Part shown: piece after piece, positions 4,776 through 64,000 of the stretch
Layout of the letters: each line of letters opens with the position of its first letter
How positions within the stretch are numbered: the first letter of the stretch is position 1
DNA from: an uncultured Eubacteriales bacterium
GTDB taxonomy: Bacteria; Bacillota; Clostridia; Lachnospirales; Lachnospiraceae
Length of the DNA: 64,000 nt
Reading direction: 5' to 3'
Assembly (NCBI GenBank): GCA_900315015.1
Contig: OMXJ01000007.1
Location: 62,001 to 126,000, forward strand
The notes under the pieces: generated by a model
The model's input: only the letters and a program-made list of their open reading frames with translations
Told to the model about the DNA's origin: nothing
Databases searched by the model: none
Position numbers and translations under genes: made by a program

Positions 4776-4805
4776 TCTTTTAGAATATGGAGTTTAAGAA
4801 ATTTA

Positions 4806-5582
4806 ATGAAACGTTTTATAGCGAATTTTAAAAAATATAAGTTCCTGTTATTTGAGCTTGTCAAAAGAGATGTCAAACTCAAGTATAGGAGTTCGATGTT
4901 AGGCTTTCTTTGGACTTTAATAGAGCCATTACTTACAATGATAGTTCTTACCATCATTTTTGGAACGCTCTTTGGAAGAGGGAAGAATTTTTCAGTATAT
5001 ATCCTTTGCGGTAGATTGATGTTCTCTTATTTTTCAAATGGAACAAAGTTAGCTCTGAAATCGATAAGAAGGAATGGAAGAATGCTGAGAAAGGTGTATG
5101 TTCCAAAGTATATGTATCCTTTATCATCAGCACTTTCAGCCTTTGTTACCTTTGCAATTTCGTTAGTAGTATTAGTAGGAGTATCCTTAGTGCAGCATAT
5201 ATGGCCAACAATCCATGTACTTGAAGCAATAGTACCGTTATTAACACTATTTCTTTTGGTTTTTTCACTTGGAATATTCCTTTCAGTTTTAGATGTATTC
5301 TTCAGAGATCTTGAATATATCTGGAATGTAGTTACAATGCTTATAATGTATGCTTCAGCTATTTTCTATTATCCTGAAAAGGTGCTTGTATCTGAGTATG
5401 CATTTTTACTTAAGTACAATCCTTTATATGCTGTAATCAACAATTTCAGACGTACAATAATGTATGGACAGTCACTTGAATTCTTTAGCACCTGGTATCC
5501 TCTTGCAGTAGCAGTAGTCTTTGGTGTTATCGGAATGATCTTCTTCTATAAGAAGCAGGATGAGTTCATATTGTATGTATAA
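4806..5582 (+). CDS. Polysaccharide/teichoic-acid export ABC permease (ABC-2 type, TagG/Wzm-like)
   Basis: This is the membrane subunit of an exporter moving lipid-linked polymers across the cytoplasmic membrane. The 258-residue product has the family N-terminal signature: an ELVKRDVKLKYRSS amphipathic segment, then GFLWTLIEPLLTM leading into the first helix. Six hydrophobic segments follow (about residues 35-55, 62-80, 105-130, 140-165, 170-190, 230-250). The ATPase partner begins 17 bp downstream. Whether the polymer is wall teichoic acid, a rhamnan-type glycan or another capsule is not fixed by this gene; downstream glycerophosphotransferase and glycosyltransferase genes favour a phosphodiester-containing wall polymer. 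Confidence 0.86.
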   Translation: MKRFIANFKKYKFLLFELVKRDVKLKYRSSMLGFLWTLIEPLLTMIVLTIIFGTLFGRGKNFSVYILCGRLMFSYFSNGTKLALKSIRRNGRMLRKVYVPKYMYPLSSALSAFVTFAISLVVLVGVSLVQHIWPTIHVLEAIVPLLTLFLLVFSLGIFLSVLDVFFRDLEYIWNVVTMLIMYASAIFYYPEKVLVSEYAFLLKYNPLYAVINNFRRTIMYGQSLEFFSTWYPLAVAVVFGVIGMIFFYKKQDEFILYV

Positions 5583-53329: not shown

Positions 53330-55291
53330 ATGGATAAAGACACAGCAACAAAGAAAGTAATAGTCAAAACGGCAGAAGCAAAGAAAGGAAGTGATAATAA
53401 AAAATCAGATGGACAGGGTTCATCCTCGAATATATTCATTATTCCGTTATGCCTGCTGATAGCAGTAGCTCCGCTCATTGTCAGATATAAGGAGTTCAAT
53501 ACTCATTACGGCGGAAATTACTGGTACCTGGCAAATGAAAATCAGACAGACGTTTTTCTGTACTGGAGACACATTTTCATTACGGCGTGTCTTGCAGTAA
53601 TGGCGGTAGCACTTATCATCACGTTGATTACGAACATTAAAGCGATAAAAAAGCCACCTGTTTTTATGTGGGCGATAGCAATATATGCTCTGTTTGCATT
53701 TTTATCAACAGTATTTTCAAAATACAGCTACTGGGGCTTTAATGGCGCGGCTGAATTATTTGAGACTGTTTGGATACTTATGGGATATGCCCTTATCATT
53801 TTTTACTGTTATTTCTTTATAAATAGGGATTCGGCACTTAAAATGATAATCTATTCCTTTTTAGGAAGCAGCATCATAATAATGCTCATCGGAGCACTTC
53901 AGGTACTTGGCAAGGATGTATATACTAAAAGCTGGTTCCAGAAACTGATCGGAGTTGATGGAATTAAACTCAGCATAAAAATGCCTGTATATAGCACCTT
54001 GTATAATCCGAATTATTTTTGCTTTTATCTTGCACTTATAATTCCATTATTATTTTATCTTTTTTTGTTTGATAAAAATATAATCAGAAGACTTCTTTAC
54101 CTTGTTGATTTTGCACTTTGCGCAATATGTATGTATGGAAGTGCTTCAGCAAGTGCATTTATAGCAGTAGGTGCGGAAATGGTATTTTCACTTTTCTTCA
54201 CCTGGAGATTATTTGCAAAGCGTAAGGGCATAACCTTTTCGCTTATCACAGTAGTGGCAGTTGCAGCAATAGCACTTATTGTATCAGGAAAGTTTTCAAC
54301 AATAGTAAAGCATTTTTACGAAGGAGACTCTAAAGGCTATATCGATTATAGTCAGTTCCCTCTGCAGGACATTACTGTAGAAGAAAATGACATAAAGATA
54401 AGATATAAGGAGCATGACATAAGATTCTGGCTGCTTCCTGATGATTCAATGGGAACCTGTTTCTTCAATTATCAGGTTGATGAATCAAATAATGGCAGCA
54501 AGAGCATGATTTTATTACCGGAGAAAAACTATTTTGTCCTTGAAGAAGCTGAATTTAGTGAAATATATGTTCAGCCAAAGATAATGGACAGCGAGTATTA
54601 TTCATTTGTTATTCACATTGAAGATGAAGACTGGTGGTTTGCAGTAGGAAGAAATGATTATGTATATCATTATCTGCATACTCCTGATTTCTCTGTTTAT
54701 AATATAGATCCTACAAGCTTTAATGTTGAGAGCATTGGCAAATTTGCACCTATAGGACAGGCACCATTTGTTCTTTTCAAGGATTATCCATTGTTCATGA
54801 CAAACAGAGGCTTTATATGGGGACATACAATTCCTCTTTTAAAGGATTATATTGTATTAGGAAATGGGCCGGATTCCTTCGTACATATATTCCCTATGTA
54901 TAATTATGTTGAAAACTATAATTATAGCAAAGTGGGAGTTGACTTCTCAAAGGAAATATCAATGCTTACCATGAAGCCTCACTGCATGTATTTACAGATC
55001 TGGGCGCAGACAGGACTTCTTTCACTCATAGCATTTATGGTATTTTATTTATGGTATTTCTTTACAAGCGTAAAGATATATTTCTTTGAAAAATATGAGG
55101 ATTTTAGATCGGTAGTCGGAGTTATTGCGTTTATCGGAAGTGTAGGCTATATGGTAGCAGCACTTGCAAATGATTCAACGATTGCAGTAAGCCCTGTTTT
55201 CTGGGTAATACTGGGAATGGGCATAGCAATAAATGCTTCAATCAAAAAACAACAGAAGGAAAAGGAGGGGGCAGATGCCAAAAAAATTTAG
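53330..55291 (+). CDS. O-antigen ligase/polymerase-like (Wzy_C) polytopic membrane protein
   Basis: The 653-residue product has about eleven hydrophobic segments. A hydrophilic N-terminus (about 35 residues) precedes the first helix. Paired helices run to about residue 330. A large polar insert of about 190 residues follows (roughly 330-520), probably outside. The Wzy_C-type ending is LGNGPDSFVHIFP, then TMKPHCMYLQIWAQTGLLSLIAF and two or three final helices. This matches glycan polymerases/ligases that join lipid-linked repeats or attach glycans to proteins. The insert is unusually long. Its 3' end overlaps the next gene, encoding a secreted Thr/Ser-rich BIG2 protein, by 17 bp. A role as glycan ligase for those proteins is an attractive inference. 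Confidence 0.84.
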   Translation: MDKDTATKKVIVKTAEAKKGSDNKKSDGQGSSSNIFIIPLCLLIAVAPLIVRYKEFNTHYGGNYWYLANENQTDVFLYWRHIFITACLAVMAVALIITLITNIKAIKKPPVFMWAIAIYALFAFLSTVFSKYSYWGFNGAAELFETVWILMGYALIIFYCYFFINRDSALKMIIYSFLGSSIIIMLIGALQVLGKDVYTKSWFQKLIGVDGIKLSIKMPVYSTLYNPNYFCFYLALIIPLLFYLFLFDKNIIRRLLYLVDFALCAICMYGSASASAFIAVGAEMVFSLFFTWRLFAKRKGITFSLITVVAVAAIALIVSGKFSTIVKHFYEGDSKGYIDYSQFPLQDITVEENDIKIRYKEHDIRFWLLPDDSMGTCFFNYQVDESNNGSKSMILLPEKNYFVLEEAEFSEIYVQPKIMDSEYYSFVIHIEDEDWWFAVGRNDYVYHYLHTPDFSVYNIDPTSFNVESIGKFAPIGQAPFVLFKDYPLFMTNRGFIWGHTIPLLKDYIVLGNGPDSFVHIFPMYNYVENYNYSKVGVDFSKEISMLTMKPHCMYLQIWAQTGLLSLIAFMVFYLWYFFTSVKIYFFEKYEDFRSVVGVIAFIGSVGYMVAALANDSTIAVSPVFWVILGMGIAINASIKKQQKEKEGADAKKI

Positions 55292-58067
55292 GAGAATTTC
55301 TCTGATACTTGCACTTGCACTTATTGTTTCGGCAATATTTCCAGGTGTAAATGTTCAGGCAGCAACAATGTCGCTCAGTAAGACTACCATACGTCTTTAT
55401 GTCGGTGGCGACTCACTTACAAATTATGGAAAGACGTATACTCTTTCAGTAAAGAATAAGAATTCAGCTTATAGCGTTTCTTATAAGTCGAGTAAGACCT
55501 CTGTAGCGACAGTAGGTAAAACAACGGGAAAAATTACGGCAAAGGGAGCAGGAAAGGCGACAATTACTGCAACCGTAAAAAATGGGACTAAGACAGTAAA
55601 GACCTTAAAGGCAACGGTTTATGTATATCGTCATGCAAGCAGCATTGCACTTGATGCATCACTTGCAAAGACCTTAAAAAAGGGAATTACCGTAGGAACG
55701 ACAAAATCAGGCAAGATAGGCTATAGAAAGGCAAGTGGAAAGACAGCCTGGAAGAGTGATGTGACATACATTACAGATACTCTTCGCTATAAATCTTCAA
55801 ATACTTCAGTATTTAAGGTAGATGCAAAGAGCGGAAAAATAACTGCAGTAGGCGAGGGCGACGCTACTCTTATCATTTATGCAGTAGATTACTCAGGAAA
55901 GAAAAAAGTTACAAAGCTTGGAGAAAAGAAGTATACGGTGAAGGTGGTTTCAAAGCAGGAACCAAAGGCTACAGCAACGCCAGCGCCAAAGGCAACCTCT
56001 ACACCTACACCTCTTCCAACGGCGACACCAGAGCCAACAGCAACATCAACTCCGACTCCTACACCAACACCGGAATGGGGAAAGATAGTTCTTGCAGACC
56101 AGACAGGTATTTCTGATTTCTCATTAATAAGACTTACCTTCAGCACAGAAAAGGATGCAAAGGCAGTACTTGATAATCCATCATTGCTCCAGGTTACAAG
56201 AACGAATTCAGACGGTGAAAATGCAGGAGTGACCCAGGTATATCAGAGTAATGTATTTAAGAGCATAAAAGCAACCAATGATCCATGTGCTATTATACTC
56301 GGTGTATATGATAACCTTTACAAGGGAATTACTTATGAATATACCTATAGGAAATCTTCAGTAAAATTTACCGGTGTAGGAAATGAGGTAGCAAGCGTAA
56401 GAACAAACCCATATCTTACAGTAAAGCCGGAAACCGAGGTAGAAATTCCATATACCCTCTACAATAAGAACGGAGTGGATATTACTCAGACCAGCATAGA
56501 TCAGACCTGGCAGTCAACCGGAGATGCACCGCCGCTTCTTGCATTAGAGTGCCTCACGGAGGATAATGGAAATGGATACACCATTTCTGTTGAACCAGAC
56601 TACAAGGGAAAGAATCCATATAAGATAAAGCTTTATTTCTACGAAGGAAATAAGAATGTAGAAGCAACCATAAAGGCGATAGTAGGCTATGATTCAAAGG
56701 GTGATGAAATAGCTTATACAGATAAGATAATCTGCTCATCTACAACGATTACCTCATCACAGTCAGGCTTCACCTATGCAATAGGAGAGGTAGGAGCACC
56801 GGCTGCAAGTCAGGCATATTCGGGCGGAACGCTTAAGATTTCAACGGAAGTAAATACAACCAAGCAGCTTTTCGTTAAGTATAGCAGATCAATAGGAAAG
56901 TATACTACTAACTATTACATTCCAGAATATGGTGAGTATTACCTTACATCAAATGGAAATGATATTGTAGTAGTAACCAAGGAAGGCGTACTTGTACCAG
57001 TAGCACCGGGCAAGACAAGCATTGTAATCAGAGACATTGTGACAGGAGATGCAATATCCTACATTCCTATCGAAGTAACAGATGCTTCGCAGATAAAGGG
57101 AATAAGCATAAGTCCATTAAATGATACAATTGTCATGAGCAAGGATTCATTTACAAAGCGTATTTCGGTTAATGCAGTGGATCAGTTCGGAAAGTCAATG
57201 AATATAGATAATGCTTCCTATGCTGTAATCCAGGGCAGAAACGATGACTTTACAATTAAGTTCGATTCAGATTATAAGGGAATTACAGTAATCTCAAAGG
57301 GAACCTATAATGGAGAAAAGTTTGATGACAATAGAACCTTTAAGATAAGATTCGACTTCTCATCGAATGGAAAGAGCTTCTCACAGACCTATACTCTTGT
57401 AATGAGAAATACTGTAGATCCAGGACTTTCACATTATAAGATGCTGCTTAGTTCAACTGGTCTTAATGCAGATCTTACTTCAAAGACTCAGATAACTAAT
57501 GCGACCATCCAGCTCCAGCCATTAGATCCGAATGGAGCAAATTATGGAAGCACAGTTCCTATTAATGTAGTATCATCAAAGTCAGCAATTTCAACTGCTG
57601 ATAATAGCTTTAGCATATTAGTTACAGGACCTGATGGAAATGTATTTACTGAAGGTCTTAGCGGCTCAGGCAGCACTACCATAAACTTCAGTTGTATTAT
57701 AGGAAATGGTGATGGAACTATCAGAAAGATAACCCCAGGCCTTTATACCATAAATATATACAGAGGTGATGGAACAAGCTATGCACCTGTGGCTTATAAT
57801 GAAGTTTCAGTAAATAAGGGCGAAGAAATAAGCATAGAAGTTAAGAATGGATATCATATAAATTCATATGCAGAATTAAAGGATATCTTCTATGCATACA
57901 GAGGACCAGTAGATGTTACAAGTAACTTAGTATCCGTTGTGCCGGTAGATCCAAAGGTAAATGGAAAAGAAGTCGAGGTAAAGCACGTAATTATTAAGGA
58001 AAAGACGACTAAGGGAATTATAGTTACGGACTATCCATTAGATAGGACATTTATTCTCAATCAATAA
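55275..58067 (+). CDS. Large secreted BIG2-domain protein, paralogue 1
   Basis: The 930-residue product has a signal peptide (MPKKFRRISLILALALIVSA, cleavage near VQAA at residues 31-32). A BIG2-like domain (about 33-125) has SVKNKNSAYSVSYKSSKTS and TTGKITAKGAGKATITATV. A second related domain (about 125-220) is followed by a Thr/Pro-rich linker (about 225-270, ATPEPTATSTPTPTPTPEW). About 650 residues of beta-rich repeats follow with no recognised catalytic motif. I chose ATG 55275 with AAGGAGGGGG upstream; the frame extends to 55233 inside the preceding gene. It is co-translated with the ligase-like gene. No sortase or SLH anchor is visible. It is probably a surface or matrix protein. Confidence 0.85.
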   Translation: MPKKFRRISLILALALIVSAIFPGVNVQAATMSLSKTTIRLYVGGDSLTNYGKTYTLSVKNKNSAYSVSYKSSKTSVATVGKTTGKITAKGAGKATITATVKNGTKTVKTLKATVYVYRHASSIALDASLAKTLKKGITVGTTKSGKIGYRKASGKTAWKSDVTYITDTLRYKSSNTSVFKVDAKSGKITAVGEGDATLIIYAVDYSGKKKVTKLGEKKYTVKVVSKQEPKATATPAPKATSTPTPLPTATPEPTATSTPTPTPTPEWGKIVLADQTGISDFSLIRLTFSTEKDAKAVLDNPSLLQVTRTNSDGENAGVTQVYQSNVFKSIKATNDPCAIILGVYDNLYKGITYEYTYRKSSVKFTGVGNEVASVRTNPYLTVKPETEVEIPYTLYNKNGVDITQTSIDQTWQSTGDAPPLLALECLTEDNGNGYTISVEPDYKGKNPYKIKLYFYEGNKNVEATIKAIVGYDSKGDEIAYTDKIICSSTTITSSQSGFTYAIGEVGAPAASQAYSGGTLKISTEVNTTKQLFVKYSRSIGKYTTNYYIPEYGEYYLTSNGNDIVVVTKEGVLVPVAPGKTSIVIRDIVTGDAISYIPIEVTDASQIKGISISPLNDTIVMSKDSFTKRISVNAVDQFGKSMNIDNASYAVIQGRNDDFTIKFDSDYKGITVISKGTYNGEKFDDNRTFKIRFDFSSNGKSFSQTYTLVMRNTVDPGLSHYKMLLSSTGLNADLTSKTQITNATIQLQPLDPNGANYGSTVPINVVSSKSAISTADNSFSILVTGPDGNVFTEGLSGSGSTTINFSCIIGNGDGTIRKITPGLYTINIYRGDGTSYAPVAYNEVSVNKGEEISIEVKNGYHINSYAELKDIFYAYRGPVDVTSNLVSVVPVDPKVNGKEVEVKHVIIKEKTTKGIIVTDYPLDRTFILNQ

Positions 58068-58077
58068 CTAAATAATC

Positions 58078-58178
58078 ATTCATCAGAAATTATTAAAAAA
58101 TGATGAATGTGTCAAAAATGTGGCATAGGAATCTTTAAAATGAAAGAAAATTGTAAGATTTCTGTGCCACTTTTGACA
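58078..58178. repeat. Nested inverted repeats before BIG2 paralogue 2
   Basis: An 8-bp perfect stem, ATTCATCA / TGATGAAT (58078-58085 with 58101-58108), is followed by a long imperfect inverted repeat (58110-58135 with 58155-58178). Its arms begin TGTCAAAA and end TTTTGACA and contain GTGGCA/TGCCAC. A TATAAT at 58190-58195 follows, without a correctly spaced -35. It may be a terminator, operator or leader structure; no T tail favours a simple terminator. Confidence 0.6.
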
Positions 58179-58272
58179 TAAATAGTTTATATAATGTTTA
58201 GCGTAAGTTATTAAGCAGTAAAAATAATGGCGAGAAGCAGGCCAATAACTGCTTCGGAACGGAGGATTAATA

Positions 58273-60930
58273 ATGAAGAAGTTTTCGAAACACTTTGCAT
58301 TACTCCTTGCGTTAGCCCTTGTATTTACATCAATTATTCCAACTGTAAATGCAGAAGCTGCCACAATGAGTCTTAGCAAAACAACAATTAGGCTGTATCT
58401 TGGCTCAGATACAACTACAAACTTAAAGAGCACCTATACTCTTTCAGTAAAGAACAAGAATTCAGCTTATAAGGTTACTTACAAGTCAAGCAAGACATCA
58501 GTAGCTACAGTTGGGGCATCAACTGGTAAGATCACAGCTAAGGGTGTTGGTACAGCAACAATCACAGCAACTGTTAAGAATGGTACAACGACAGTTAAGA
58601 CACTCAAGGCTACAGTTAAGGTATACCGTCATGCAGCAGAAATCGGCGTACGTTCAGAACTTGCAAAGGTATTAAAGAATGGTATCGAGGTTGGTACAGT
58701 TAAGTCATATCATGTAGGTTTCAGAAGAGCAACAGCAAACGGAGCAGTTATCTGGGGAACAGGCGCAACAAAGGTTACAGATAAGCTTAGATTTAAGTCT
58801 TCTGATACATCAGTATTCACAGTAGGAAGCACAACAGGAAAGATTACAGCAAAGGGCGAAGGAACAGCAGTTCTTACAGTTTATGCTGTAGATTATACAG
58901 GAAAGAACAAGGTTCAGTCACTTAGCGAGAAGGTTTATCCAGTAGTTGTAGTTGCAAAGAAGACAGCAACAGCAACACCTACACCTACTCCAGTAGCAAC
59001 AGCAACACCTACACCTACAGCAGCTGCAGGAAAGATTGTTTCAGCTACACAGGAAGGCATTTCAGATCTTTCAGTAGTAAAACTTACATTTGCAACAGAG
59101 GATGACGCAAAGGCAGTTATCGCAGACAAGTCTCTTCTTAAGGTCGAGAGAACAAAGGACAATGTTACATCAACAATCCAGAGCAATCTCTATGCATCAA
59201 TCACAGCAGTTAACGGCGACGCTAAGTCAGTTTACTTAAAGCTTTACGAGAACGCAGAAGAAGGAACAAAGTTCACATATTCATATAATGGTTCATCAAC
59301 AAGCTTCAAGGGCGTTGGTAATAAGGTAGCAGGCATTGCAGTTGGAACAACAACTGTTACAGCAGGCGAAATGAAGGATATCCCATATACTCTTTACAAT
59401 GCAAACGGCGTAGACGTTACAAAGGTTGCAGTTAAAGGAGTAGATTATCAGACAATTATATTCTCGTCAGCAGATAGTGTTAACTACTATGTATCAGGCA
59501 ACCAGATCTACTTCAACAAGGGTGGCGTAAATGCAGTAGTTACAGCAAAGGTAGTTGTAGGTTACGATTCAATGGGTAATGAAATTGCTTATACAAGCGC
59601 AGGACCTATTGCAGCAACAGAGACAACATCAATAGCTTCAGGTTTCTCATATGCAATCGGTGCAGTAGGAGCAGTTCCATCAACTCAGACATACTCAGCT
59701 TCAGGTGTATCACTTCCAGTTGATTCATCAACAAAGCAGCTTTTCATTAAGTACACAAAGACAACAGGTAAGGACACAGAGACATTATATGTTCCTGGTG
59801 CAGAAACATACACATTCACATCATCAGACAGCAACACACTTGCAGTTAGTGATACAGGTATTGTATACCCGGTTAAGACAGGCAGTGTAAAGGTTATCGT
59901 TAAGAATTCAACAGGAAGCGCTATTGCAGTAATTCCTGTAACAGTTACAAATAAGTCAATTCTTACAAGCGTTGCACTTTCAGCTAATAACGCAAAGATT
60001 TCTCTTGCTTCAGCAGCTGATGCAGATGTAGATATTACAGCATTAGACCAGTATGGAAATGACACAACATTAAATTCAGTTTCTTATGAAGTAGTTCAGG
60101 GTTCAGGCGCAGACGTATCAGTAGTAATCGATTCTGATTACTCAGGCTTCACAGTAATGCCTAACGGAACATATGAAGGAAAGTCATTTACAGGAACAAA
60201 GACAATCATCATCAGATTTACATTTGAGAAGGACGGCGTTACAAGAACAAGCAACTTCGTACTTACTCTTAAGTCAGCAACAAGCTCAACAGCAACAAAT
60301 TATGTACTTTCATCTACAAATACAAGATTATTCATCGATCTTACAAAGGCAGTTACAGGAACATCAGTAATCAGTCTTGAAGGTAAGGATTCAGAAGGTT
60401 TCGTAGTAGATACAGGAAGCACACTTAACCTTGCATCAAGCATGGCAACAGTTTCAACAGGAAAGGATGTATATAGTGTAATTATTACTGATCCATCAGG
60501 AAATCCTGTAACAACAGGTGTATCTGGTTCAGGCACATCAGAAATCACATTTAATGCACTTATGACATCAGGTGGAACAATCAAGAAGGCAGCAGCTGGA
60601 ACATACATCGTTAAGGCTTATGTAGGAACAGGCGGAGCATACAAGCTTGCAGCTCCATCATTAGCAATCGTTGTATACGACGGTGATGCACTTGCACTTA
60701 CACTTAATAGTGATGTAACATCTATCTCAGATTACTCAAATCTTAAGGCATATTACACAGCTAAGCGTGGTTCAACAGACGTTACAGAAAACATCGTTTC
60801 TATTACACCAGTTAGCCCAACAGTAGTTGGTAAGAGCGTTGTAATTCAGGATGTAGTTGTAAGGGAGAACACAGCAGCAGGTCTTCTTGAGACAACTGTT
60901 AAGATTCAGAGAACATTTACTCTTAAGTAA
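58273..60930 (+). CDS. Large secreted BIG2-domain protein, paralogue 2 (probably highly expressed)
   Basis: The 885-residue product is collinear with paralogue 1. It has a signal peptide (cleavage near NAEAA, residue 30), a BIG2 domain opening TMSLSKTTIRLYLGSDTTTN, a second domain with YRHAAEIGVRSELAKVLKNGIEVG, a Thr/Pro linker (ATPTPTPVATATPTPT near 235-255), and a beta-rich C-terminal region with KQLFIKYTKTTGKDTETLYVPG, shared in form with paralogue 1. Codon choice is much more biased (ACA, TCA, GCA, GTT, AAG) than in paralogue 1 and matches livJ and metG, which suggests a very abundant product such as a surface-layer or matrix protein. It starts 205 bp after paralogue 1 with GGAGG before ATG 58273. 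Confidence 0.86.
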   Translation: MKKFSKHFALLLALALVFTSIIPTVNAEAATMSLSKTTIRLYLGSDTTTNLKSTYTLSVKNKNSAYKVTYKSSKTSVATVGASTGKITAKGVGTATITATVKNGTTTVKTLKATVKVYRHAAEIGVRSELAKVLKNGIEVGTVKSYHVGFRRATANGAVIWGTGATKVTDKLRFKSSDTSVFTVGSTTGKITAKGEGTAVLTVYAVDYTGKNKVQSLSEKVYPVVVVAKKTATATPTPTPVATATPTPTAAAGKIVSATQEGISDLSVVKLTFATEDDAKAVIADKSLLKVERTKDNVTSTIQSNLYASITAVNGDAKSVYLKLYENAEEGTKFTYSYNGSSTSFKGVGNKVAGIAVGTTTVTAGEMKDIPYTLYNANGVDVTKVAVKGVDYQTIIFSSADSVNYYVSGNQIYFNKGGVNAVVTAKVVVGYDSMGNEIAYTSAGPIAATETTSIASGFSYAIGAVGAVPSTQTYSASGVSLPVDSSTKQLFIKYTKTTGKDTETLYVPGAETYTFTSSDSNTLAVSDTGIVYPVKTGSVKVIVKNSTGSAIAVIPVTVTNKSILTSVALSANNAKISLASAADADVDITALDQYGNDTTLNSVSYEVVQGSGADVSVVIDSDYSGFTVMPNGTYEGKSFTGTKTIIIRFTFEKDGVTRTSNFVLTLKSATSSTATNYVLSSTNTRLFIDLTKAVTGTSVISLEGKDSEGFVVDTGSTLNLASSMATVSTGKDVYSVIITDPSGNPVTTGVSGSGTSEITFNALMTSGGTIKKAAAGTYIVKAYVGTGGAYKLAAPSLAIVVYDGDALALTLNSDVTSISDYSNLKAYYTAKRGSTDVTENIVSITPVSPTVVGKSVVIQDVVVRENTAAGLLETTVKIQRTFTLK

Positions 60931-60951
60931 TAAGTGATCTTGAATAATAAG

Positions 60952-61002
60952 TATTCTTGAGTGCTAAGTATTCTTGAGTACTAAGTATTATTGAGTACTA
61001 AG
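60952..61002 (+). repeat. Tandem 17-bp repeats after BIG2 paralogue 2
   Basis: Three units, TATTCTTGAGTGCTAAG, TATTCTTGAGTACTAAG and TATTATTGAGTACTAAG, lie at 60952-60968, 60969-60985 and 60986-61002. A degenerate fourth (GATCTTGAATAATAAG) precedes them from 60936. Two of the units carry the palindrome AGTACT. Confidence 0.9.
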
Positions 61003-61032
61003 GTTTTAAAAGTAGTATATTAAAAAATATTT

Positions 61033-61064
61033 AAGGCGGAGAAATCTATTTTCTCCGCCTTTTA
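61033..61064 (+). terminator. Intrinsic terminator after BIG2 paralogue 2
   Basis: AAGGCGGAGAA (61033-61043) pairs with TTCTCCGCCTT (61051-61061) over 11 bp, followed by a T run. A strong GC-rich stem. Confidence 0.86.
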
Positions 61065-61116
61065 TGCCCTAAAGATAAGAAAGGTAAAGAGAATAGTAAA
61101 AATATATAAAATAGTG

Positions 61117-61145
61117 TTGAGATATTTTTGCTTTTATGATAGAAT
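61117..61145 (+). promoter_or_regulatory. Promoter for BIG2 paralogue 3
   Basis: TTGAGA (61117-61122), a 17-nt spacer and TAGAAT (61140-61145). The leader of about 75 nt contains a perfect 8-bp hairpin, ACGTTAAT / ATTAACGT (61158-61165 with 61177-61184), starting a few bases after the predicted start, the same layout as in the livJ leader. Confidence 0.7.
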
Positions 61146-61228
61146 GAACAAAGAGTGACGTTAATGATGAAAGTGTATTAACGTAATTTTGATTTAAATT
61201 CGTTTAAAGGAAATGGAGGGAAAATCAA

Positions 61229-62875
61229 ATGTTTAATTCGTTATTTAAAAAAGGAAAATTAGCAAGGATATCAGTGATAATGGTTATGGCAATGTTAGTA
61301 TCACTGTTTACCCCAGCAGCAGGAGGAGCTCAGATTACATATGCAGCTTCACTTTCAACAACCAGCAAGACCTTGTACTTAGATGGAACAAAGTCTTTTG
61401 CAATTCAGGTAAGCGAAGCACCTCAGGGCAGTACCATTTCGATTTCATCAAGTGATACAGGCGTTGTAGTAGTAGATCCGGTATTCTACACAGTTACAGC
61501 AGTAGGCGCAGGAACAGCAACTGTACATGTAAAGGTTACAGATGCCGAAGGAAATGTCGAAAATCTTAGCTGCAGTGTAACAGTAAAGGAGAGCTCGGTA
61601 GAAAATACACCAACTCCTACAGAAGAGGCAAAAGCAACAGCAGCGCCAAAGGCAACAGCTACGCCAAAGGCAACCTCAACGCCAAAGGCAACAGCTACAC
61701 CGACTCCAACATCAACCCCTACTCCAACACCAGCGCTTGTAACTAGCAGCATGAAGCTCTCAAGCACAGCGCTTACCATGTATGTGGGAGAAGGAACAAA
61801 GAGTTTAAGTGTAAAGAACCAGCAATATGCTTCAGTAAGCTTCTCATCAAATAAGAAGTCAGTAGCAACAGTTACTTCAAAGGGCAAGATTACAGCAAAA
61901 GCAGTAGGAACAGCGGTAATCACAGCTACAGTAAAGAATGCTGGAAAGACAGTAAAGACCTTGAAATGTACAGTTACAGTAAAGCGTCATGCAGAAAGCG
62001 TAGGACTAAACTCATCAACAGCAAAGTCACTTAAGAAGGGCGTATATGCAGGAAGTACGGTTGCAGTTAATAAGACCTTCAGAAAAGCTGCTGACGGAAC
62101 AGTAGTTTACGGAACAAAGATAAATTACATAACTGATACTCTTGTATGTACATCTTCCAATAAGAAGGTATTTGTTGTAAATAAGACTTCAGGAAAGATA
62201 GTTACTAAGAATCCAGGAACAGCAAAGCTTACAATCTATGCAGTAGATTCAGATGGAAATAGAACAACTGACAAGGTAACCTATACAGTAAAGGTAAAGG
62301 CGACTCCTACCCCTACACCAAACCCGGATTATGGCCAGATCACAGGTGTAAATCAGAATGGTCTTACAGATCTTTCAAAGGTAAAGGTAGTATTTGAAAG
62401 CAAGTCAGATGCAAATAGGGTAGCAAAGGATAATAGCCTTGTTAAAGTAACATCAGATGGAGCAAATGTAGGAATTGCTGCAGTTGAAAAGTCAGGTACT
62501 GACAATACCTTAATTCTAACCTTTGCAGGCTCACTTGTAGGAGGAACTTATAGATTCCATTACAATAACCAGTACTTTGAATTTACACCGACGGGCTATG
62601 TACCTGAGGTAGCAACGGTATCGTTAGTAGGTGCTATAGGAGTGGATGGCAAGGCTAAGTACACCTATAAGATCTACAATGATGCGGGAATCGATATAAC
62701 GAGCTCTATACCAGAGGAAGATATAACTATAGAGGCACAGTATCCAAGCGATGCTAAATTTGAAATTGTAAGTAAGAGTGTAATAGTATTTAATGAGTTA
62801 AAGCCGGCAAAGCTTAAGATTACAATTACAAGTGGAGCAAGTCCTATAATGCTTCTTGCAACGCTCACTCCATAA
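61229..62875 (+). CDS. Secreted BIG2-domain protein, paralogue 3, C-terminally truncated
   Basis: The 548-residue product has a signal peptide (cleavage near TYAAS, residue 39) and an extra N-terminal BIG2-like domain (about 40-125) not found in the paralogues. A Thr/Pro/Ala linker (about 130-170) follows, then the shared two-domain block (SSMKLSSTALTMYVGEGTKS, KKSVATVTSKGKITAKAVGTA, KRHAESVGLNSSTAKSLKKGVYAG), a second TPTPTPNPD linker, and the start of the C-terminal region. It stops at LLATLTP, where paralogues 1 and 2 continue for about 400 more residues. The break coincides with an unrelated 3' gene fragment, so the end is probably a recombination scar. The secreted N-terminal part could still be functional. 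Confidence 0.82.
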   Translation: MFNSLFKKGKLARISVIMVMAMLVSLFTPAAGGAQITYAASLSTTSKTLYLDGTKSFAIQVSEAPQGSTISISSSDTGVVVVDPVFYTVTAVGAGTATVHVKVTDAEGNVENLSCSVTVKESSVENTPTPTEEAKATAAPKATATPKATSTPKATATPTPTSTPTPTPALVTSSMKLSSTALTMYVGEGTKSLSVKNQQYASVSFSSNKKSVATVTSKGKITAKAVGTAVITATVKNAGKTVKTLKCTVTVKRHAESVGLNSSTAKSLKKGVYAGSTVAVNKTFRKAADGTVVYGTKINYITDTLVCTSSNKKVFVVNKTSGKIVTKNPGTAKLTIYAVDSDGNRTTDKVTYTVKVKATPTPTPNPDYGQITGVNQNGLTDLSKVKVVFESKSDANRVAKDNSLVKVTSDGANVGIAAVEKSGTDNTLILTFAGSLVGGTYRFHYNNQYFEFTPTGYVPEVATVSLVGAIGVDGKAKYTYKIYNDAGIDITSSIPEEDITIEAQYPSDAKFEIVSKSVIVFNELKPAKLKITITSGASPIMLLATLTP

Positions 62876-63050
62876 CAAAGTTGCTGAAAAATTTGAAGAA
62901 GGCACTCTTTCAGATTATATCACACTACACACAAAATGTGAAAAAGACGAAGATGCTATTGGTGAACATACTTCTGACAATGATACTTTGAACGAGGTAT
63001 ATGCATGGCTCTTAGAACATGAAAAGCAGGATATCTCTAATATTGATTGA
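62850..63050 (+). pseudogene. Orphan 3' gene fragment after the truncated BIG2 gene
   Basis: An open frame to TGA 63048-63050 reads NKVAEKFEEGTLSDYITLHT, then about 38 further charged residues ending EKQDISNID. The only candidate start is TTG 62856, without a ribosome site and inside the BIG2 gene. The charged, helical composition and codon use differ from the neighbouring beta-rich proteins. I read it as the tail of another gene joined here by deletion or insertion. The family is not recognised. The remainder of the 320-bp gap to 63197 holds a terminator and a hairpin. Confidence 0.38.
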
Positions 63051-63066
63051 GCTAAGTAAAACAAAT

Positions 63067-63106
63067 AAAAGGAACGTAAGGGGAAAACCTTTACGTTCCT
63101 TTTTTC
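63067..63106 (+). terminator. Strong intrinsic terminator
   Basis: AAAAGGAACGTAA-GG pairs with CCTTTACGTTCCTTTT over 15 bp with one bulge (63067-63081 with 63088-63103), with a GGAAAA loop and followed by TTT. It closes the orphan fragment/BIG2 unit and faces the convergent minus-strand gene. Confidence 0.86.
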
Positions 63107-63153
63107 GTAAGTAAGTGTTTAAATGCGAAAGTTGTTTATAAACGAAAGCGTTA

Positions 63154-63181
63154 GCTTTAAAAATGCAAAAAGCATTAAAGC
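63154..63181 (-). other. Hairpin just downstream of the variable-protein gene
   Basis: GCTTTAAAAATGC (63154-63166) and GCATTAAAGC (63172-63181) pair over 10 bp with a 3-nt bulge. On the minus strand it lies about 16 nt after the stop codon at 63197. It may be a weak terminator. A hairpin in this position is also seen beside variable repeats of some diversity-generating retroelements. Confidence 0.35.
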
Positions 63182-63196
63182 AAGAAACAAAGCCCT

Positions 63197-64000
63197 CTAT
63201 AAAGGTCTTGCCATAATCCTGCAGCTGTTGTAAGCAACTCTGCTCTTAGAGGTGAACTCTGCCCTAAAGCAGAAGAGACCAGCATGTGCAAGGTTGTCCC
63301 AGGCGCCGCCGTAGGTAAGGACATAGCTCTTATCTGCCTCGCCGGCATTTGTCCAGGAGCAGCAGTAATAGGAATTAAGAGAAGCCCCGCTACCAGCTAC
63401 AGAAGGCAGCGCTATAAGAGGTTCAAGAGAATCAAAGCCGAGCTTTTTTACAGCCATAGGATTATCTGTATTAGAAGATAAAAGATCGCTTGAAATATGG
63501 GCAGTCTGTACAGGTACATTGTAGGAAGGAGAGTGAACCGACCCATCAGGGAAGGTAAAGCTCACCTTTCCGTCTTTGACATTTGTGCCATCAAGGAGCA
63601 TCCAGACATTTCCATAAAGATTCTCAATTCCCCTGTATTTAAAGGAGAGCTTTCCGGAAAAAATATCGTTCCGGAGAGATTCTTCAGACGGAATGAAAAC
63701 CCCGCTGTGATAATCTACACCATCAGTGCAGCCACAAAAAGCAGGAAGACCGGTTATCTTGGTGATGCCCTTTTTGATGTCAGTGCTTTTACCATCAAAC
63801 TGAATAATATATCTATTCTTATGAGCATCATCGGTAGCTATACTGGTAATTCTTCTTTGATAAAAATTAGGAGAATTTGTATATTCGTTTTTCCAGGCAC
63901 CTAAAATCGAAATGCAATCTCCCGCCTTGAATCTAGCGGTAATAGGAGACTTGATAATGGAGATGGAATTAGAATTACTGCTATCCTCTAAAGCGTGATA
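63197..64000 (-). CDS. DGR-target-like variable protein, C-terminal part (5' end outside window)
   Basis: The minus-strand frame is open from the stop at 63197 to the window edge: 267 residues, with an internal ATG at 63601 that is not the start. The domain begins around FKYRGIENLYGNVW followed by LLDGTNVKDG, a pattern shared with the FGE-sulfatase/C-type-lectin fold of phage and bacterial receptor proteins. It closes with SYYCCSWTNAGEADKSYV, then LTYGGAWDNLAHAGLFCF, ending in ARPL. The GG-W...AG-F...ARP-L layout is that of variable-region C-termini diversified by diversity-generating retroelements, where exposed positions are encoded by NNY codons. The codons for Ala, Asp, Asn, Leu, His and Cys in this stretch are of that type. 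No reverse transcriptase or template repeat is visible here. Confidence 0.76.
   Translation of the reverse strand, partial: YHALEDSSNSNSISIIKSPITARFKAGDCISILGAWKNEYTNSPNFYQRRITSIATDDAHKNRYIIQFDGKSTDIKKGITKITGLPAFCGCTDGVDYHSGVFIPSEESLRNDIFSGKLSFKYRGIENLYGNVWMLLDGTNVKDGKVSFTFPDGSVHSPSYNVPVQTAHISSDLLSSNTDNPMAVKKLGFDSLEPLIALPSVAGSGASLNSYYCCSWTNAGEADKSYVLTYGGAWDNLAHAGLFCFRAEFTSKSRVAYNSCRIMARPL

Follow-up and report, generated by a model that had tools for sequence, protein, structure and literature searches.

A probable phage-tail-derived C-type-lectin gene of the diversity-generating retroelement variable-protein family, found without a retroelement in a Lachnospiraceae genome

A minus-strand reading frame at the right edge of the 64,000-nucleotide stretch analysed here (the window; positions 62001–126000 of contig C18 of assembly G000) raises the question of whether it is the target of a diversity-generating retroelement (DGR), as a sequence-only reading of the window had proposed, and, if so, where the reverse transcriptase (RT) and the template repeat (TR) that would vary it are located. 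The assembly comprises 2.80 Mb in 43 contigs and is 96.4% complete, with ~4% of the genome missing. The frame, which that reading had correctly described as open from 63197 as far as the window edge, was found to be part of an intact open reading frame (ORF) of 687 amino acids that runs past this edge (L003:7197–9260, minus strand; window-equivalent positions 63197–65260). Its ATG is preceded by a GAGG stretch resembling a ribosome-binding site, and its GC content, 0.41–0.44 across the gene, is close to that of the surrounding DNA. The C-type-lectin motif YRGIENLYGNVW and the C-terminus of the form GG-W..AG-LF..ARPL, both pointed out in the same reading, are present in the 687-aa protein (the latter as GGxW..AGLF..ARPL), and they align to the RGxEN columns, which are invariant, and the GG..AG columns, which are nearly invariant, among 81 homologues. 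The features concerned are the following.

63197..64000, minus strand: 3′ part of the 687-aa gene (last 267 codons and the stop codon), encoding a phage-tail-type protein with a C-terminal C-type-lectin domain, as assigned from the ORF, phrog_5302, an AlphaFold2 model and Foldseek.
63200..63331, minus strand: equivalent of the DGR variable region of phage homologues, aligned with 75 TR-mapped variable regions; the genome holds no near-copy of it and its codons show no NNY excess.
62850..63172, minus strand: stretch just 3′ of the gene in which the TR of relatives begins; no such repeat was found here by BLAST or by an exhaustive ungapped scan.

A Pfam search of the 687-aa protein returned no match, and a PHROGs search with the whole protein identified the tail-protein family phrog_5302 (E 2.9e-35). 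Viral scans using alignments that include the 687-aa protein retrieved 147 IMG/VR loci, and a profile search of the ORFs in these and in five genome loci detected a homologue in 152/152. A DGR-type RT was present in the stored flank at 97 of the 152 homologue loci, and a downstream repeat of the 3′ end of the gene, with at least 75% of its mismatches at A, at 108 of the 152; when duplicates and cut genes were left out, a DGR was found alongside 78 of 108 distinct complete homologues and none was detected in the other 30. The C-terminal 488 amino acids (residues 200–687) were modelled with AlphaFold2 from 81 sequences (pLDDT 81.5, pTM 0.85), a first model built from two sequences having been discarded (pLDDT 30). 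When this model was compared with the PDB using Foldseek, the only matches under 1e-3 were chains of TaqVP (best E 1.1e-8), the variable protein of a DGR in a Thermus aquaticus prophage (PDB 5VF4; PMC6328139), and the top matches among viral structures were tail collar fibre proteins (E 2.4e-27, TM 0.76). TaqVP, the best solved-structure match, adopts a C-type-lectin fold, and its variable region occupies the extreme C-terminus; the two proteins are 14% identical, with modest TM-scores (0.33–0.38 by query), and TaqVP belongs to a complete DGR, whereas none was found for the 687-aa gene. Taken together, the model, the TaqVP match and the alignment with DGR-bearing phage homologues indicate that the 687-aa protein adopts a C-type-lectin fold and that its variable-region equivalent is C-terminal. 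The assignment of the 687-aa gene as a phage-tail-type member of the DGR variable-protein C-type-lectin family is thus supported by profile, tree (see below) and predicted structure.

The closest known systems are the phage tail proteins of PHROG 5302 that carry a DGR-diversified lectin C-terminus, such as the prophage variable protein of L048 and the phage variable protein of L020/L027. These are homologous to the 687-aa protein over the C-terminal 350–480 residues and share with it the RGxEN and GG..AG motifs and the position of the C-terminal variable-region equivalent, but they possess a TR 28–350 bp downstream, a DGR RT and a tail-gene setting, all three of which are lacking at the 687-aa gene, and their N-terminal domain is different. 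The two DGR prophages (L048:8005–10990 in G414, contig C9, and L020/L027 in G040) each contain a tail-protein target and a DGR RT, and two TR-like repeats (4784–4888 and 4619–4721 of L027) lie upstream of the RT in G040. A variable-protein-type C-terminus is, by itself, no evidence of a DGR at work. Another family member, a prophage tail protein encoded at L021:5280–7085 (minus strand; contig C16 of G171), is still situated amid tail genes and has no DGR; the G171 genome (99% completeness) yielded zero RT matches.

The search for the mutating machinery covered the whole assembly. The only RVT_1 match in it is a defence-type RT of the UG26 group on another contig (C35), which lacks the GNYTS-type motif seen in the control DGR RTs; it was rejected as a DGR RT on its class and because no TR was found in the surrounding 19.9 kb, and no DGR-type RT was found in the 96.4% complete assembly. 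This 404-aa protein (L002:9393–10607, minus strand; PADLOC 7.8e-163), a candidate phage-defence RT, is encoded among housekeeping genes, with a 175-aa ORF of unknown kind directly upstream. BLAST of positions 63190–63640 against the genome returned the sequence itself and chance matches, with no TR; the best stray match in the variable-region equivalent (27 bp, contig C40) sits amid housekeeping genes and was dismissed as chance. A pattern of 129 bases in which A was allowed at every base, with up to three mismatches, matched the gene itself and nothing else in the genome. The same BLAST approach recovered the TR in two control DGR prophages of the same order (116 bp with 13/13 mismatches at A in G414; 108 bp with 14/15 in G040). 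In all 75 relatives with a mapped TR (75/75), the repeat begins 28–350 bp beyond the last codon on the same strand, and the corresponding stretch here (~62850–63172), which lies inside the window, contains no copy. A search for Avd (PF05635) was uninformative, since it gave no match here, in the control genomes or even in the DGR-bearing G040.

Two traces had been named by which a DGR might be recognised anywhere in the genome, a near-copy of the end of the gene with A-specific mismatches and an RT gene with a DGR-type motif; neither was encountered in the 96.4% complete assembly, where the UG26 RT is the only RT. The earlier reading had rightly noted that the genes to the left of 63197 are unrelated, and had left three options for the TR and RT. 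An upstream location is excluded as far as the contig end, because the 6.8 kb to the right of the gene contain a metallophosphatase and an FrhB/FdhB-type protein and no RT; a remote location finds no DGR RT to drive it within the 96% of the genome assembled; and loss fits best of the three.

In ~400 genomes from the family and ~400 from the order (overlapping draws), together with a genome contig collection, one full-length relative was identified: Acetitomaculum ruminis DSM 5522 (Lachnospiraceae) carries a gene of 759 aa (L019:8630–10909, L028) whose product is 34% identical over the whole length. No matches were obtained with a single-protein query against genome contigs or with the G040 protein against viral contigs; profile A1, built from two sequences, retrieved no relative from viral contigs, a plasmid search found none, and a phage search gave one weak match. 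The A. ruminis copy is chromosomal and lies away from phage genes, and neither a TR for it nor a DGR-type RT was found in its genome (98% complete); the one RT found there was rejected as a DGR type from its motifs as read by eye (GTPQGG, maturase-like C-terminus) and is group II intron-like. The two copies also have in common an N-terminal domain of ~120 residues, which is absent from every phage homologue retrieved, and a nearby PF04432 gene.

The sequence-only reading had further relied on NNY codons at exposed positions. No excess of C/T-ending codons was detected in the last 48 codons (33/48, vs 426/639 in the rest of the gene; one-sided p = 0.45). The same test gave 41/48 vs 233/440 (p = 6e-6) in the DGR phage control G040 and only p = 0.07 in the DGR control G414, so it is not very sensitive. 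Mapping of the 75 TRs to the alignment defined ten columns with AAY in most TRs; at these, NNY codons occupy 8/10 positions in the 687-aa gene (AGG and GAG being the exceptions) and 8/10 in the Acetitomaculum copy, compared with a mean of 94% in DGR-bearing members and ~0.67 across the 687-aa gene overall. A value of 8/10 is compatible with an ancient DGR origin and ordinary mutation since then, but alone decides nothing.

These codons also bear on whether the gene could be the live target of a distant DGR, one whose RT and TR would act in trans either from sequence missing from the assembly or from a phage or plasmid carried only occasionally. Remote DGR targets are known (PMC8144416, PMC8867640), 4% of the genome is missing from the assembly, and 8/10 falls inside the DGR-member range; however, the assembly contains neither a DGR RT nor a TR, chance would have to hide the DGR in A. 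ruminis as well, NNY codons are not in excess over the rest of the gene, and AGG and GAG cannot be reached from AAY by changes at A only. We therefore regard such a live target as quite unlikely. Of the proposal that the gene encodes a DGR variable protein, membership in the family and the fold are upheld by profile, tree and predicted structure, whereas its status as a DGR target is not, given the missing DGR RT, TR and NNY excess.

In a tree built without the variable-region columns, the window and A. ruminis copies are sisters (99) and fall inside a set of 29 rows (99), 24 of which carry DGRs. Both stand-alone copies form long branches, and the AU test does not reject a tree in which they join the largest phage clade lacking DGRs (p-AU 0.19). 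This last result, and the 30 of 108 distinct homologues in which no DGR was detected, would suit descent from tail proteins that were DGR-free throughout, in which case nothing was lost. Against this, the best tree nests the pair in a mainly DGR-bearing set, and some DGR-less homologues adjoin DGR-bearing ones, a pattern that repeated loss or truncated contigs would explain; an origin without any DGR appears quite improbable. A phage ancestor bearing a DGR is likely, rather than proven.

We consider it probable, at roughly 0.7, that the product of the 687-aa gene is a phage-tail-derived member of the DGR variable-protein family with a C-terminal C-type-lectin domain, and that the gene itself now stands alone in the chromosome, with no DGR. 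Its ancestor would have been diversified by a DGR, which may have been lost, or left behind as the gene settled in the chromosome, the gene then having been captured without it. Because no machinery that could mutate it was detected in the genome, the protein is probably either a relic that no longer varies or a binder put to new use. Our favoured mechanism is that the cell has retained it as a binder of fixed specificity, whose former variable face would now recognise a single ligand, which may be a glycan or some other molecule of a surface. The alternative, that a prophage was lost and left behind a functionless gene still open by chance, would likewise account for the phage-tail homology and for the want of partner phage genes nearby. 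Both frames, however, are intact (687 and 759 codons) in two genera at 34% identity, with conserved motifs throughout; the N-terminal domain common to both copies is unseen in the phage homologues; and gene linkage is similar in the two genomes. A mere remnant is hence unlikely.

The neighbours of the 687-aa gene are Big_2 Ig-like proteins, the metallophosphatase and the FrhB/FdhB-type protein, and no phage genes surround it, either on the left side in the window or on the right side to the contig end. Of the prophage origin suggested earlier, phage-tail ancestry is supported by phrog_5302 and the collar-fibre matches, and a phage setting is not. The PF04432 (FrhB/FdhB) gene is divergent and lies ~3.8 kb from the 687-aa start codon, compared with ~0.3 kb in A. 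ruminis; there are only two PF04432 copies in the window genome and one in A. ruminis. In Acetitomaculum, teichoic-acid-type genes come next, and the window contig ends just past its PF04432 gene. The neighbourhood argument for the stand-alone pair rests on these two genomes. The 687-aa protein has no hydrophobic N-terminus or signal peptide, nor has the A. ruminis copy, and the Ig-like neighbours differ in this respect; the protein is therefore made in the cytoplasm, as a tail protein is, and the term ‘surface protein’ is unsupported for the 687-aa gene itself. It is a tentative possibility that a small bacterial lineage took over a DGR-diversified phage tail lectin, froze its specificity, gave it a new N-terminal domain and retained it, close to genes for surface polysaccharides, as a glycan-binding protein.

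A literature search on orphaned DGR targets returned nothing to the point. DGR surveys usually begin from the reverse transcriptase, and targets that outlive their DGR consequently go uncounted. An intact stand-alone pair in two genera offers an opportunity to study the role of a hypervariable lectin after its variation has ceased.

Several other genes near the two copies were recorded. In A. ruminis, a polysaccharide pyruvyl transferase domain forms the N-terminal part of a 692-aa protein (L019:12847–14925, minus strand), which also resembles the FrhB/FdhB-type protein of the window genome (24%, 3e-10) and could therefore be a fusion. In the window, positions 55233–62875 (plus strand) encode three consecutive large secreted-type proteins with N-terminal repeats alike in all three, and both of those tested (58273 and 61229) have Big_2 Ig-like domain matches. 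Between the Ig-like gene and the 687-aa gene lies a 64-aa ORF without a Pfam match (62856–63050, plus strand), the start of which overlaps the end of the Ig-like gene.
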